Assembly (NCBI RefSeq): GCF_018127965.1
Contig: NZ_CP072350.1
Coordinates: 186,001 to 250,000 of the forward strand
DNA: 64,000 nucleotides
Direction: 5' to 3'
DNA from: Prevotella melaninogenica
GTDB taxonomy: Bacteria; Bacteroidota; Bacteroidia; Bacteroidales; Bacteroidaceae
Position numbers and translations under genes: made by a program. Below the pieces are notes generated by a model. That model did no database searches, was not told the origin of the DNA, and saw nothing but the letters and a program-made list of their open reading frames with translations. The stretch's first letter is position 1, and each line of letters begins with the position of its first letter. This document shows, in pieces, positions 46,933-57,780 of the stretch.

Positions 46933-48245
46933 GGTTCATCCGACATTTCGAGTGATACGGCAGTCATGCAGTGCATAAAGTCGTAGAGTAAAGTATTTCT
47001 CGTCCCTAAATCCATACGCATTTCGTTTCATAACCTTTATCTTGTTATTAATACCTTCAACTTTTCCCGTTGATAGATGGCAATCGTACCAGGCAAGGAT
47101 CCCTTTCTTATAGGTTTTCACGGTAACAGCCATTTTCTGTAATTGTGTTATCTTACTTTGTTCAGCCTGTCTTATCCAGTCATCAAGCACTTTTTCTGCC
47201 ATAGCCTTCATGGATTGCGACCATATCTGATGGAGTTGTTCCTTCAAATAGTATGCTTTTGACAATGGCTCATTCATAGCTAAGGCATTCTCAAGCCTTG
47301 TCTTGTGCTGTTTATCAAAGATGTCTACACCATTGCCGAGTAGCAGATACCTTGTTCCTTTGAGTACTTTACGCTTATTTATATCTTTCTCCATACTATA
47401 AACTTTACGTCTGATATCATCAAGTTTCTCGTTCATTAACTTCACTACATGGAAATGATCAAATACATGTACTGCATCGGGACAATTCTCCATAACAGAG
47501 GCTATGAAAGCCGCAGACAAGTCTGTTGCCACATGCTTTATCTTTATATTCTTACGTTTGACTTTCCGCCAGAATTTCTTCAGAGCTTCACTACCCTTGC
47601 CATCGCCAACATAGATTATCCTGCCACTGTCCAAATCAACGACGATTGTCTTATAGACATGTCCTTTCCTAACAGCAAACTCATCTATACCAATATTCTC
47701 TACATCCTCTAAAGATGGAGGACTATAATGACGCTTAAGGTAAGAGGAGTGTATTTCCTTTACAGTATCCCATGATACGCCCAAATGATTCGATACGTCC
47801 TGAAGCGTCATGCCACGAAGTAAATCTACTACATACTTAGCAAAACGGTGAGTATAGCCGCAACTGCCAGTGGCAAAAGGAATTTTCTCCTGCTGATCGA
47901 AGTCACATTCCTTACATTTATAGCGTTGTACCTTCATGCGTATAGTTACTCGCTTGCCACCTATGGGAAGTCCAACAAAGTCTCGTAAACGATACCCATT
48001 CTTTACTATGGAGCGGGCATCACAAGAAGGGCAACATCTTATTCGTTCTTTTGCTTGCACATGCAAAATAATTCTATTACCTTTGTACTCTTCACAAGTG
48101 CATTCGTGGGTATAAAGACCCCAAGCATGATATAGGAAACTGCTGTTCATATTTGTACATTTGTTGGTGCATATTCAAATATACAATATTTACAGCGGTT
48201 TCTTTTCGTATTTTATGTATTTATCACTCCAAATTCCGGAAGAAC
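46933..48245 (-). mobile_element. ISL3-family insertion sequence with intact 8-bp target duplication
   Basis: The element is 1313 bp. Left end GGTTCATCCGACATTTCGAG (46933) and right end, read inward, GGTTCTTCCGGAATTTGGAG share about 20 of 25 positions through GTGATA. The flanks TAATTTTG at 46925-46932 and TAATTTTG at 48246-48253 are a perfect 8-bp duplication, as expected of ISL3. The insertion is therefore recent and simple. Confidence 0.92.
46936..48150 (-). CDS. ISL3 family transposase
   Basis: The 404-residue protein has an N-terminal zinc-binding region (CCPSCDARSIVKNGYRLRDF and YKCKECDFDQQ), a helix-turn-helix (MTLQDVSNHLGVSWDTVKEI) and the DDE transposase core (NIGIDEFAVRKGH, VFDHFHVVKLMNEKLDDIRR, and the C-terminal STGKVEGINNKIKVMKRNAY with the catalytic Glu). 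The stop codon lies right at the element's left end. Intact. Confidence 0.95.
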   Translation of the reverse strand: MNSSFLYHAWGLYTHECTCEEYKGNRIILHVQAKERIRCCPSCDARSIVKNGYRLRDFVGLPIGGKRVTIRMKVQRYKCKECDFDQQEKIPFATGSCGYTHRFAKYVVDLLRGMTLQDVSNHLGVSWDTVKEIHSSYLKRHYSPPSLEDVENIGIDEFAVRKGHVYKTIVVDLDSGRIIYVGDGKGSEALKKFWRKVKRKNIKIKHVATDLSAAFIASVMENCPDAVHVFDHFHVVKLMNEKLDDIRRKVYSMEKDINKRKVLKGTRYLLLGNGVDIFDKQHKTRLENALAMNEPLSKAYYLKEQLHQIWSQSMKAMAEKVLDDWIRQAEQSKITQLQKMAVTVKTYKKGILAWYDCHLSTGKVEGINNKIKVMKRNAYGFRDEKYFTLRLYALHDCRITRNVG

Positions 48246-48550: not shown

Positions 48551-49678
48551 ACCTGAACTCGGGATAAGAAATATCTGTAAAAAGTTGGTAATCTCATTAT
48601 ATTTTTGTAACTTTATAGTTGAAAATCAATTATTTACAATAAACATAACGATGATTACCAAGGACAAAATTACTGAAATTTTCTGTATTGCAGATGACTT
48701 TTGCAAAGAATTTGAGTTAGAAACTGATAAAATAGGTCTCTCAGAAAGGAATAAAGGATGTCATCGCCATCGCAGGTGGCGTATGAGTAAGTCTGAAATC
48801 ATAACGATATTAATTTGCTTCCACTTTAATTCCTATCGTAATTTTCGTCACTATTATACCTTTTTCGTAAAAGAGCATTTAGCAGATTTATTTCCAAATC
48901 AATTGTCTTATAATCGTTTTCTTGAATTAGAGGCAAGAGTCTCTGTAGAGATGATGATGTTCCTGCAGATATGTTGTTTTGGGAGGTGTACTGGTATTAG
49001 TTTTATTGACTCAACTTGTATTCCAGTTTGCCATAATAAACGTATTTGTCGCAATAAGGTTTTTAGAAATTATGCAACAAGGGGTAAGAGTACAATGGGA
49101 TGGTATTTTGGATTCAAACTACATCTTATTTGTAATGAAAGAGGTGAGATTCTAAACTTTATGCTCACTAAAGCAAATGTTGATGACCGAGACGAAAATG
49201 TATTTAACAGGTTGACAGACAATGTGTTTGGTAAATTGTTTGCAGACAAAGGGTACATTTCTCAAGGATTATTTGATCGATTGTTCAATGATGGAATAAA
49301 TTTAGTTACTGGCATTAGGAGTAACATGAAAAACAAACTAATGCCACTTTATGATAGACTTCTTCTAAGGAAAAGATCTGTAATAGAGACTATCAATGAT
49401 GAGCTAAAGAATGTAGCTCAATTAGTGCATTCAAGGCATAGAAGCATATTTAATTTCGCAATGAATGTTCTCTCTGCTATTGCAGCCTACAAGCTTCTTT
49501 GAGAAGAAGCCAGCAGAGAACATAGACTTTGCTATAGAGCAACATTCGGGACAGCTTACATTATTCTAAAGTAATCTGTTTTATTATTATCTTTAGACCC
49601 AATCAAAAGATTGAGTCTAAAGAGCCGTTGTACTAAACCAAACAGAAGAGTGGGATGATACTTAGCCCGAGTTCAGGT
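48551..49678 (+). mobile_element. IS982-family insertion sequence
   Basis: Inverted ends ACCTGAACTCGGGATAAG (48551-48568) and CTTAGCCCGAGTTCAGGT (49661-49678) match at 17 of 18 positions and bound 1128 bp. The flanks end TAATA and start TAATA, a possible 5-bp target duplication, although the sequence is simple. Confidence 0.88.
48651..49502 (+). CDS. IS982 family transposase
   Basis: The 283-residue protein starts at MITKDKITEIFCIADDF (the frame opens earlier, but this is the family start). The DDE residues are visible in SFIDSTCIPVCHNKR, KLFADKGYISQGLFDRLF and RKRSVIETINDELKN. The length and the final AYKLL ending are typical of IS982. Intact. Confidence 0.94.
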   Translation: MITKDKITEIFCIADDFCKEFELETDKIGLSERNKGCHRHRRWRMSKSEIITILICFHFNSYRNFRHYYTFFVKEHLADLFPNQLSYNRFLELEARVSVEMMMFLQICCFGRCTGISFIDSTCIPVCHNKRICRNKVFRNYATRGKSTMGWYFGFKLHLICNERGEILNFMLTKANVDDRDENVFNRLTDNVFGKLFADKGYISQGLFDRLFNDGINLVTGIRSNMKNKLMPLYDRLLLRKRSVIETINDELKNVAQLVHSRHRSIFNFAMNVLSAIAAYKLL

Positions 49679-52715: not shown

Positions 52716-54306
52716 GTAACTATTCAGCGATAATAGATATATAAGTGCATATCAATTTCTCAAACCTTAAATAAGGCTTGAATCGCATTATATGGAGTTT
52801 TGTCGTGCTTCTTAGCTGTTTCTACAATCGAATGAAGTTCAAGGAAAGCGTCTGCTCCGAAGTCTGAACGAAAAGCACAGGAGTTCTTCAGTTTGATTTT
52901 TAGCTTGCGTATTCCCCTTTCGCTTCCATTATTGTCAAATGGTATCATCGGATTTTCGAGGAAATTGAAAATGTAATCTCTGCATTTGACCAAGCCTTTT
53001 CTGAACGTAATAAACTTTTTACCAAGCCCCTCTATATTCTGTTTGAGCAGATTGTCTAAACGTTCAATCCATGATACCTTGTCTATAACGTCGTTCGGAT
53101 TGGTATTCCGCTCGTGAATGGCTTCACGGAACAGATTGGTTACTTTCCCAGACCACTCTTGCTCAGTGTTCAACTCTGAGAGATATTGCAGTTCGCGGAG
53201 TAAGTGTGCAAGACAAACCTGGTGATTGAGAAAATGGAGTGCAAAGTATGCGCTATGGCGGTCGGTAACGGCAGTCATTCGTTCCAGGCTATCGCCAAAC
53301 TTGTCTGCTAATACCTTCGACCCTCTTCCATTAGCACGGAAAAGCAATGTGTAATAAACAGTCTGTGCAATCCATGCCCAGTCGAGTCTTTTGTTACAGT
53401 ACAAGCCGCTCTCATCGAAACCAACAACTGCTGATGACTTGATATATTCTTTAATTTTATCAATCACAGGTTGCGCATTTCTCTTTGCCTCATTTACCCA
53501 GTTCACCAGTGAACCTTCGCTTGGAGTGAGTCCAAATACCTCACGCAAAAAACTTGCTATACGACCGTAAGGAAGAAATTGCACGACACTCAGATAAACC
53601 ACTAAGGTCTTTACGCTTGAATCATATACCACGTTGTTTGACCGCCGTCTCGGTGCTGTCCGAATACGTTCACCACAGTTCTTGCATACCATCACATAGT
53701 GTCGGATTTCCCTGATTACGGGCTTCAACTCTGGAATGGAAATAACCTGCGTCACATAATCAAGCACACGTTCTGTATCTGATAAAGATTCTCCGCAACG
53801 AGTACAATAGTTGGGTACCTCATCAATTATCTCGTCAGGTATGGAAGAGCAAGGCAGCTTGTGTCCATCATGTCCCTTTTGTCCTCCCGGCTTCTTACCA
53901 CTTGGCTTACGGAGGCTTCGCGTTCTTCTGATAACCTCATCCTTTATACGCTCCTTGCTTGGCGGAGTGCTACTGTTATTAGAGTTTTTGTCAGGATTTT
54001 CATACTTAGCCAAGCGTTCCTGTAAGTTTATAAGTTCCGTATCTTTCTTGCGAATTTCAAGGTTCAGAGCATTTATGTTACGGTTCAATTTAATAATCTC
54101 GGCATACTGCTGATTAACAGTTGCACGCAATAATCGCATCTCTTCCGTCATGCCTTGTAATACTTTTGATATATCCGTAACCTGCTCTTTCATAGGTATA
54201 AAGGTACAAAGAAAAACTGAAATACGCAAGAAAAACATCTTTATAGCCTTTATACGAAGATTTTAGAGGAGAGAATACAGACTGAACAATACCGCTGAAT
54301 AGTTAC
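52716..54306 (-). mobile_element. IS66-type insertion sequence, copy 2 (inverted)
   Basis: Same length (1591 bp) and ends as the copy at 17566-19156, opposite orientation. The flanking octamers (AAATACCG and CGCTATAT) are not duplicated. Confidence 0.9.
52760..54193 (-). CDS. IS66 family transposase, copy 2
   Basis: Nearly identical to the transposase at 17679-19112. The only clear differences are LLKQNIEGLG here against LIKQNIEELG there. The start codon, coiled coil, zinc-binding Cys pairs and DDE core are the same. Intact, so the element is potentially active, and the pair forms a 37-kb inverted repeat. Confidence 0.95.
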   Translation of the reverse strand: MKEQVTDISKVLQGMTEEMRLLRATVNQQYAEIIKLNRNINALNLEIRKKDTELINLQERLAKYENPDKNSNNSSTPPSKERIKDEVIRRTRSLRKPSGKKPGGQKGHDGHKLPCSSIPDEIIDEVPNYCTRCGESLSDTERVLDYVTQVISIPELKPVIREIRHYVMVCKNCGERIRTAPRRRSNNVVYDSSVKTLVVYLSVVQFLPYGRIASFLREVFGLTPSEGSLVNWVNEAKRNAQPVIDKIKEYIKSSAVVGFDESGLYCNKRLDWAWIAQTVYYTLLFRANGRGSKVLADKFGDSLERMTAVTDRHSAYFALHFLNHQVCLAHLLRELQYLSELNTEQEWSGKVTNLFREAIHERNTNPNDVIDKVSWIERLDNLLKQNIEGLGKKFITFRKGLVKCRDYIFNFLENPMIPFDNNGSERGIRKLKIKLKNSCAFRSDFGADAFLELHSIVETAKKHDKTPYNAIQALFKV

Positions 54307-54882: not shown

Positions 54883-57780
54883 TTAACTATGTTTATGTAC
54901 CATCTCTATCAATTCATTAGCAAGATAAATATCAGTCATCTTTATCATGTTATCATCCTTTGAAGCATAACCAAGCGTGTTTATTGAACCATACCAAACA
55001 ACTTCTTTATCAATGATGGTAGTATATAGTGATAGCTTTGGTTTCACTTTTACAGATAGCCCCTTTGATTGGATGAAAACTGTTTGCTCGTTCTCTGCAG
55101 CTGTTGTGATAAGAATTTCAATTCCCTGCTGAGCAAGTTCTTTCAACAAAGTGACTAAGGGATTTTGCTCCGTTCTATACAGTTTTGGTGAAGATATCAC
55201 AATGGAACGCTTTGCTTTTATCAAATCTGAAGTGTAGGGGGGGGGGTAGAAAGTTGAACCATTAAATATCTGATTCTCAGGTACGGAGGACGGTATGTCG
55301 TTTATGTTATCAAACAATGTTGGTTGGGCTGTATTGATTGTTTTGTATCCTATTGCAGCATAGCCTTTGAGTCGTTTTCTATACATACTATCGCAAATTG
55401 GCTCATGGATATCGATATAGTCATAGATACATACATCTTTCTTTCCCTCATATTCCCGATGAAGCCGACCTGCATACTGAGTTAAAAGACCTTTCCATGA
55501 GATTGGAAGTGCAAGGAATAGGGTGTCAAGACGCGGATAATCAAAACCTTCGCCAACATACTTCCCCGTTGCGACAATAACTAATTGTTCGCTGTCAGGA
55601 ATAGTTTGTAGCCGTTGCATTGCCTCTCGTTTTTCTTTTGTCGTACCTATTCCTGTCAATGAGACAACATTTTTGATGGTAGCTTTCAACTTCTCTGCTA
55701 ATACAGACACATGGGCAGTCCTATTAGTCAGAATGATTGGTGTTCTTCCTGTATTAACTGCTTTGCAAATATCTTCTACTATGAGATTGTTGCGTATCTC
55801 ATCTTCGGATAGATATTTATATAAGGTTGCAATTGATAGCCTGTCCTCTAAAATAGAGTTATATGATATAAATCTTGGAATAAGAAACCTATCGAAGGAT
55901 TGCTTAGCTATCTGACTTTTAGCATCAGTAGAAAATCGTATTGGACCACATTGCATGAAGATGATTGGTTGATGACCGTCTTTGCGAATGGGGGTAGCTG
56001 TTAACCCATATATAGTGTGAGCTTTTATAGACATCAATACTTGTTCAAAGGTTATAGAAGACACATGATGACATTCGTCGACAATTACCATTCCGTAGTC
56101 CTGTACAAATGGTTTTACACCATCTTCATCCAAGCATGACTGTATAAGGGCTATGTCAATAATACCGTGAAGTGTATTCCCTGATGAATCAAAGCAACCT
56201 ATAGGAGAAAACACCTTACGTCTACCACGTTTATTCTTTTCTTCATGTTGTGGGTAGTCGATATTAAGAAACTCTGTTAAGCGGTCATGCCATTGTTTAA
56301 GTAATGCTTTCGAATGAACAAGGATGAGTGTATTTACTTTCTTACGAGCGATAATAGCTGCTGCAGTAACGGTTTTCCCAAAAGCGGTAGTGGCATGTAG
56401 GATGCCATTCGTATATGGTAATAGGGCATTGATGGCTTCCAACTGTTCCTCTCTTTCTTCCCCTTGAAAAGAAACTGAAATCTTATTGCCATGATTTGTT
56501 TTATCAATAATAGTGTATGTTACAGCATTGTCGTTAAGGAAAGATCGAGTAGCATCCTCACAACCACGTGGCATAGCAAGGTATTCGTTAGTAATATCAA
56601 AACATGAGATTATGCGTGGAATGGCATATGTAGAAAGACGGAGCGCTTGCTTACTGTAAAATTCAGGATTCTTGAAGGCTGCAATTCTTTTCAAATGGTT
56701 TAGTACCTTTGCTGAAACAGCTTTCAATGGGATGTATAGTTTGTCTGCTTTGATTATCTCAACCTTAGCATGGAAGTCTTCTTGTGTGATGTTTTGCGGC
56801 AAAGGGGTAACCCATGGCTTGTTTTCGCTCGACATAGACAGTTTTCCAAGTTCTTCTTGATAATGCAGGCGTAGTAGCTGGTCGATAGTAGATTCTTGTA
56901 TCTTCTTAAGATTATAAAGAAAAGCCCATTGATCCTTATATACAAGGAAATCATTATCAACAAACACACTGTTCTGTTTCCTGCGTGCCTGACCTTGTAG
57001 TGGGAGTGCAACGAGGTTGCCAAAGCCTCCTTCTGGTAAATAATCTTGATTGGGAAAGAAACGGTCATAGGAGTTGAACGACATCTGTCCATTACGTGTC
57101 ATAGCTTCTGTTAGTATAGCATTTCCTAATCTCCTTGCCTTAGATGCTGGTAGAGGAGCTTCAAAGAAAATCCACACGTGGGCACCATTCCCCGATCTCG
57201 AGCGCTCTATGGCATAGGGAATCAGCCATTCTCTGCACACACCCACATAGGCAAGTACATCTTCTTTATAACCATACTTACAGTTCTTGTCATCAAAATC
57301 GGCACAAAGGAAAGCACAATTATTATCTTGCATGATAGCATAGAGTCCCACAACATCACAGCAATACTCATCTTTCCCTTCTAAATGGCGATACATATCT
57401 TGAGTCGTTAGTGGTGCAAAGTTTCTATTTGGACATATTGCACACCTATACTTCTTCTTATCACAGAGTCCTTGTTTCCACTCATTAATACAAACAGGTT
57501 GATATCCAGATTTACCAGTAGTCTTACTAAACCATCTCCGTGCAAAGACATCTTCTCTCCCTTTAAATAAGGATTGGAAAAGTCTTATGCGCTCATCAAT
57601 CGAAAGAGTAATAGTTGGAACTGAAACCAAAGAATATATAGGTTTATTCATATCTTCTTTCATCCTTGTTTCATATTCAATACCATGGATTTTTAGAAGT
57701 GATTTCAGAACCTCATTCTCTTTGTGCAAAACCTCATATTGCCTAAGAAGTTTATTATATCTTGTCAGTAAATCATCCAT
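54883..57780 (-). CDS. TOTE-type primase-helicase with C-terminal PLD-like domain
   Basis: The 965-residue protein is one large multi-domain frame. A short coiled coil (2-35) leads to an archaeo-eukaryotic primase-like domain (about 70-290) with a Cys cluster (CINEWKQGLCDKKKYRCAIC), the metal motif FLCADFDDKNC and SGNGAHVWIFF. A superfamily 2 helicase follows (about 440-820): HATTAFGKTVTAAAII, VDECHH, YGLTATPIRKDG, QYAGRLHREYEG. A phospholipase D-like domain closes the protein (about 845-960), but its active site reads LYTTIIDKEVVWYGSIN without the usual H-x-K. TOTE systems are thought to act in DNA conflicts. A ten-base G tract lies between helicase and PLD domains. Confidence 0.88.
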   Translation of the reverse strand: MDDLLTRYNKLLRQYEVLHKENEVLKSLLKIHGIEYETRMKEDMNKPIYSLVSVPTITLSIDERIRLFQSLFKGREDVFARRWFSKTTGKSGYQPVCINEWKQGLCDKKKYRCAICPNRNFAPLTTQDMYRHLEGKDEYCCDVVGLYAIMQDNNCAFLCADFDDKNCKYGYKEDVLAYVGVCREWLIPYAIERSRSGNGAHVWIFFEAPLPASKARRLGNAILTEAMTRNGQMSFNSYDRFFPNQDYLPEGGFGNLVALPLQGQARRKQNSVFVDNDFLVYKDQWAFLYNLKKIQESTIDQLLRLHYQEELGKLSMSSENKPWVTPLPQNITQEDFHAKVEIIKADKLYIPLKAVSAKVLNHLKRIAAFKNPEFYSKQALRLSTYAIPRIISCFDITNEYLAMPRGCEDATRSFLNDNAVTYTIIDKTNHGNKISVSFQGEEREEQLEAINALLPYTNGILHATTAFGKTVTAAAIIARKKVNTLILVHSKALLKQWHDRLTEFLNIDYPQHEEKNKRGRRKVFSPIGCFDSSGNTLHGIIDIALIQSCLDEDGVKPFVQDYGMVIVDECHHVSSITFEQVLMSIKAHTIYGLTATPIRKDGHQPIIFMQCGPIRFSTDAKSQIAKQSFDRFLIPRFISYNSILEDRLSIATLYKYLSEDEIRNNLIVEDICKAVNTGRTPIILTNRTAHVSVLAEKLKATIKNVVSLTGIGTTKEKREAMQRLQTIPDSEQLVIVATGKYVGEGFDYPRLDTLFLALPISWKGLLTQYAGRLHREYEGKKDVCIYDYIDIHEPICDSMYRKRLKGYAAIGYKTINTAQPTLFDNINDIPSSVPENQIFNGSTFYPPPYTSDLIKAKRSIVISSPKLYRTEQNPLVTLLKELAQQGIEILITTAAENEQTVFIQSKGLSVKVKPKLSLYTTIIDKEVVWYGSINTLGYASKDDNMIKMTDIYLANELIEMVHKHS
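55237..55246. repeat. G10 homopolymer tract inside the TOTE gene
   Basis: Ten G on the plus strand code for Tyr-Pro-Pro-Pro-Tyr on the minus strand (codons TAC CCC CCC CCC TAC). Losing one base gives a stop within about 3-4 codons, and gaining one gives a stop after about 20 codons. Either would remove the PLD-like domain. Confidence 0.9.

Follow-up and report, generated by a model that had tools for sequence, protein, structure and literature searches.

A probably recent, slippage-prone C tract may add or remove the last domain of a primase-helicase between strains of one species of the Prevotella melaninogenica group

The window analysed here, a stretch of 64,000 nucleotides from Prevotella melaninogenica, carries on its minus strand a gene of 965 codons (54883..57780) for a primase-helicase with a C-terminal PLD-like domain. 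The AEP (primase-polymerase) domain occupies residues 63–301 (56878..57594, minus strand) and is matched by the AEP-TOTE family of Pfam (PF22548, 322.8 bits, E 1.6e-96). By both profile and fold, its nearest solved structures are those of CAPP PrimPol (7nqd–7nqf, the domain assignment being made on 7nqd/7nqe), and the PADLOC PrimPol profile scores 274.8 bits on the window protein. The SF2 helicase core, residues 441–775 (55456..56460, minus strand), comprises a ResIII match (441–599, 77.4 bits) and a Helicase_C match (670–775) and resembles XPB by profile and fold; Foldseek accordingly returned XPB for the helicase part of the protein and CAPP PrimPol for the primase part. A low-confidence linker at about residues 811–836 (55273..55350, minus strand), in which the AlphaFold pLDDT falls below 50 at 818–833, leads into the PLD-like domain at residues 836–965 (54886..55275, minus strand). 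The AlphaFold model of the whole protein has a mean pLDDT of 75.9 and a pTM of 0.46. The gene product is probably a defence helicase, a putative anti-phage role being suggested by family names alone. Downstream of the gene lie transposase genes of the IS66 (52760-54238), DDE_Tnp_1_3 (48585-49502) and ISL3 (46936-48150) types.

The catalytic motif of phospholipase D is HxKxxxxD. For the C-terminal domain of the window protein, which was assigned from the Pfam match, the structural model and a residue table, the best Pfam match is PLDc_2 at 19.5 bits, below the cut-off of 27; the same family is matched above the cut-off in relatives at loci L012 (40.2 bits), L052 (35.1) and L031 (28.5), and below it in L004 (22.9). 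Across the 23 sequences of the residue table the Asp of the motif and the Trp-Tyr-Gly that follows it are invariant. The His is present in four and the Lys in one, and the two are never found together, such that the catalytic His/Lys pair is absent from all 23. The domain is thus conserved, yet on its residues it is not predicted to be a canonical HKD nuclease in this protein family; a putative binding or regulatory role is what we infer for it.

Near the start of this last domain the coding strand carries a run of ten cytosines. Read directly from the letters, it is a G10 on the plus strand at 55237-55246, exactly where the first-pass annotation had placed it, and thus a C10 on the minus strand (55237..55246) made up of the third base of codon 845 and codons 846–848, at 88% of the gene. 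The same annotation had put the run precisely in the linker between helicase and PLD-like domain, which is nearly right: it falls just after the linker, in the loop that joins strand 1 to helix 1 of the modelled C-terminal domain (residues 10–13 of a C-terminal-domain model beginning at 836; mean pLDDT 93). Because the tract lies in a loop at the domain's edge, a slip takes away the whole domain except one strand. As a pure homopolymer within a coding region it breaks the frame on loss or gain of a single base, the computed products being 852 residues for C9, 867 for C8, 868 for C11 and 853 for C12. In each case 4 or 20 codons are read in the new frame before a stop is reached, in agreement with the earlier estimate of stops within 4 or about 20 codons for changes of one base.

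Relatives were gathered as 203 listed proteins nearest to two queries, which do not constitute a population sample. One search, over 8000 scored proteins, gave a best 120 that all lack the tract and read YRPY (114), YRSY (3) or YCPY (3) at the site; in the other, which used the slipped-form tail as query, 778 of 956 candidate proteins matched at E up to 0.001, the best 120 being used. A protein named as from P. melaninogenica (P0052) is 98% identical to the window protein. The tract was found in a shifted frame in 12 of the 203 listed proteins, 11 in the C8 frame and one in the C9 frame, these run lengths being deduced from protein frames and not from DNA. Ten of the C8-frame proteins have 867 residues and one, with a late start, has 718; their 11 tails are identical to each other and equal to the computed slip product. 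The C9-frame protein (P0132) has 852 residues and a single contig behind it. The linker is identical in all 12, three of which (P0121, P0123 and P0125) are listed with no source. Tract length therefore varies between strains at the protein level, as the first-pass annotation had proposed checking, and its prediction that a slip would cost the protein its last domain is borne out by these relatives, which retain primase and helicase and have lost the PLD-like domain. With the window's own included there are 13 tract sequences, 12 of them off; the on form is seen in the window only. No other full-length tract protein is among the matches listed, where it would rank near the C9 form, in a database that is clustered and may hide members.

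As a control for false slips we took a G8 run in an outer membrane protein, for which a shifted form would rank first. None appeared among the best 120 of 545 matches; the control is a weak one, because just 24 of those 120 end in the tract-like VGG form. A search of viral contigs with the tract and its flank gave no match, and the protein has a single relative there, 64% identical. A shorter flank matched seven viral contigs, which were set aside because the surrounding sequence is unrelated. Plasmids and annotated phages yielded nothing beyond distant helicase matches.

The shifted and in-frame forms share their upstream sequence closely. P0125 (C8 frame, 867 residues, three contigs) matches the window protein at every one of the 844 residues that precede the tract, and P0123 differs from it by one residue and the C9-frame P0132 by seven. 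Since a C8-frame protein equals the window before the tract, the C8, C9 and C10 frames are all represented on one linker haplotype, to which the tract is confined among the sequences found; this haplotype occurs in several N-terminal backgrounds. A tree was built by a quick method from the pre-tract sequence of the 173 rows in which it is exactly 844 residues long (P0121 was among those left out). It places 9 of the 12 tract rows, including that of the window, in a supported set of 11 (SH-aLRT 97) whose two other members are the non-tract rows P0001 and P0002; the remaining three fall among non-tract alleles. We read the tract as having probably arisen once and then changed in length, with spread by recombination, on the strength of these protein sequences. 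The three outlying rows may possibly reflect separate origins or chimeric assembly.

Both forms might also come from a single allele if the frame were leaky, ribosomal or polymerase slippage letting C8 or C9 alleles yield some full-length protein. The run in the mRNA is pure C, and CCC-C sites are prone to shifting if tRNA-Pro is without m1G37. However, the 121 nt around the tract hold no stimulatory RNA structure (z -0.10, with 88 of 200 shuffles folding at least as well), which leaves programmed frameshifting by RNA structure unsupported, and we consider a leaky frame highly improbable.

A 601-base query over 398 same-genus genomes (E up to 1e-60) found the site in five, the window's own genome counted, and the tract is absent from the other four (G145, G426, G388 and G030). 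The two nearest same-genus species, G426 and G145, whose gene is about 97% identical to the window gene and which have upstream neighbours in common with it, carry CGCCCC at the site (plus strand GGGGCGG); G388 and G030 have other, interrupted codons. Nor does the tract occur in any other of the locus rows listed, several of which overlap one another and one of which (L019) lies outside the tract region. Conservation of the tract in relatives was not found; the first-pass annotation had named the pairing of a constant length with non-conservation as telling against a switch, of which the second half holds, whereas length does vary. G426 and G145 have the same surroundings as the window upstream of the gene but not on its transposase-bearing downstream side, and in G426 a small ORF that by eye resembles a piece of a transposase (L062, 3682-4104) separates the primase-helicase gene from its neighbour upstream.

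A long run alone proves nothing. In the window's genome (3.22 Mb in two contigs) the C10 is the sole G/C run of at least 9, four runs being exactly 8 long and 11 exactly 7; but a run of at least 10 is ordinary per genome, being present in 209 of the 398 same-genus genomes, a count that includes the window's own, and rarity was accordingly dropped as an argument. Of the five runs of at least 8 in the window's genome, one gave no match in the sister-species search and in sister species all four comparable ones are either interrupted or of lesser length, a pattern that picking the longest runs could explain and that miscalls could explain too. This bears on whether the window strain might truly be C8, or of some other length, with C10 a sequencing or assembly error. 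The C10 rests on one assembly, and P0125, with the same 844 upstream residues in the C8 frame, could come from a second assembly of the window strain. Against this, a miscall would need two bases and would have to happen to restore the frame, and, with the C8 frame found in 11 distinct proteins, an artefactual origin of the pure run is unlikely; we regard a miscalled C10 as improbable. At a second run in the same genome, a G8 at C2:973985-973992 (L069, L070), the reading frame of a gene of some 467 codons is broken into two, of 235 and 248 codons, where all three sister species examined (L071-L073) have a single open frame. Its first piece has no family by Pfam and is putatively GDSL/SGNH-like.

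A more serious competitor is ordinary gene decay, under which C8 is one loss allele of an often-broken gene, the break is one-way and C10 is a chance return to frame. Such a one-way loss allele is a strong rival because unrelated lesions break the gene in relatives: G030 (L003) and G054 (L005) each have a single in-frame TGA directly beyond the helicase, and the frame of the primase-helicase gene is broken in G388 (L064). Decay would also fit the off state of 12 of the 13 tract sequences and the start at a later Met in 21 of the 203 listed proteins, 9 of them at Met129, although some late starts may be contig edges. The off alleles nevertheless span several backgrounds, 11 of the 12 being open throughout the 844 residues upstream, and the finding of C10 and C8 forms with the same upstream sequence is a pointer to further length change. 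We hold decay to be possible, if on the unlikely side. We also sought it in a surplus of changes at conserved positions, an approach that was abandoned; for private changes at family-conserved sites the counts are two of six in tract-off rows, 12 of 103 in full rows and one of six in late-start rows, too few to separate the groups. The nine proteins that start at Met129 (P0134, P0135, P0136, P0164, P0177, P0178, P0196, P0197 and P0200) have 836 residues, and eight of them lie on contigs of at least 6.9 kb, a pattern suggestive of a break that has recurred within codons 1–128.

The reading that we favour, and to which we give a probability of roughly 60%, is that the tract is a recent slippage hot spot in one species of the P. 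melaninogenica group, which adds or removes the last domain between strains. A G-to-C change (Arg to Pro) would have turned an ancestral CGCCCC into a pure C run, which would then have changed length by strand slippage, both the mechanism and this order of events being our inference. In frame, C10 gives the protein of 965 residues; out of frame, C8 and C9 give proteins of 867 and 852 residues in which primase and helicase are retained and the PLD-like domain, degenerate in its catalytic residues, is missing. It is because C10 is in frame and C8 and C9 are shifted that the tract would add or remove that domain between strains. The short form would presumably be a stable protein with altered function and not a null. 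What is new here, and supported at the protein level, is the apparent variation in length of the tract between strains.

In effect the tract toggles the last domain; selection for such switching is unproven. An evolved, reversible contingency locus, in which selection keeps the tract and both the long and the short forms, for example to balance phage defence against self-damage, would account for the presence of on and off states as three frame classes on one haplotype. The position of the tract, judged from the model, would allow clean removal of one domain, and its length is close to the G9-G10 given as typical of C. jejuni in the excerpt of PMC8355987. Against such a locus stand the absence of the tract from four same-genus species, the lack of a second run of at least 9 in the genome, a position at 88% of the gene and not near its start, and the dominance of off forms among the sequences found, and we think it doubtful.

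Surface structures and restriction-modification systems are known to be subject to homopolymer switching. We offer only tentatively, and as an unlikely case, a homopolymer switch in which C8 and C9 encode a 'bare' primase-helicase and C10 adds a non-catalytic PLD-like module, as a population hedge against phage or self-damage. To our knowledge, a homopolymer switch for one accessory domain of a primase-helicase defence protein would be the first of its kind, and a search of the open-licence literature by title or abstract opening found no phase-variable TOTE or PrimPol-helicase protein among the papers listed. If true, the tract would extend homopolymer switching to another protein class and offer a natural experiment on the function of the degenerate PLD-like domain. 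Should it prove no more than a loss allele prone to slippage, the tract would still suggest a way in which phase-variable sites are born, one substitution joining two short runs and length variants following.

Four known systems invite comparison. The first-pass annotation had called the protein a TOTE helicase, and TOTE is expanded as TPR, OB, TBP, Effector in the excerpt of PMC12458937. The likeness to TOTE conflict systems with an AEP domain lies in the AEP-TOTE Pfam domain, and to that extent the name holds. Unlike them, however, the window gene has no TBP (PF00352) in its genome at E up to 0.001, in a search where 4 of 14 control genomes, all archaea, were positive, and no TPR-OB gene nearby: the eight neighbouring ORFs scanned between 46.9 and 63.3 kb include no OB domain, and their sole TPR match is within a histidine kinase. 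Given the lack of TBP in the genome and of an adjacent TPR-OB gene, we call the product an AEP-TOTE-domain protein and not a TOTE system; it appears to stand alone. CAPP PrimPol, the closest in structure to the primase domain, differs in that the window primase is fused to an XPB-like helicase and a PLD-like domain, and no Cas family match was found among the same eight ORFs.

As regards the tract, contingency loci of the Campylobacter type likewise have a coding G/C run of 8–10 whose strain-variable length sets the frame. The excerpt of PMC8355987 describes G9-G10 as typical of C. jejuni switches, with G8 tending to gain bases and G11 or longer to lose them. C. jejuni has a set of such tracts, whereas the window genome has a single run of at least 9, late in the gene and absent from the same-genus species examined. 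In Listeria inlA, as far as the excerpt of PMC2831843 goes, a homopolymer frameshift likewise truncates the protein and frame-restoring insertions occur; there the run is poly(A) at the 5′ end, in contrast to the poly(C) near the 3′ end of the window gene, a slip in which would remove one domain.
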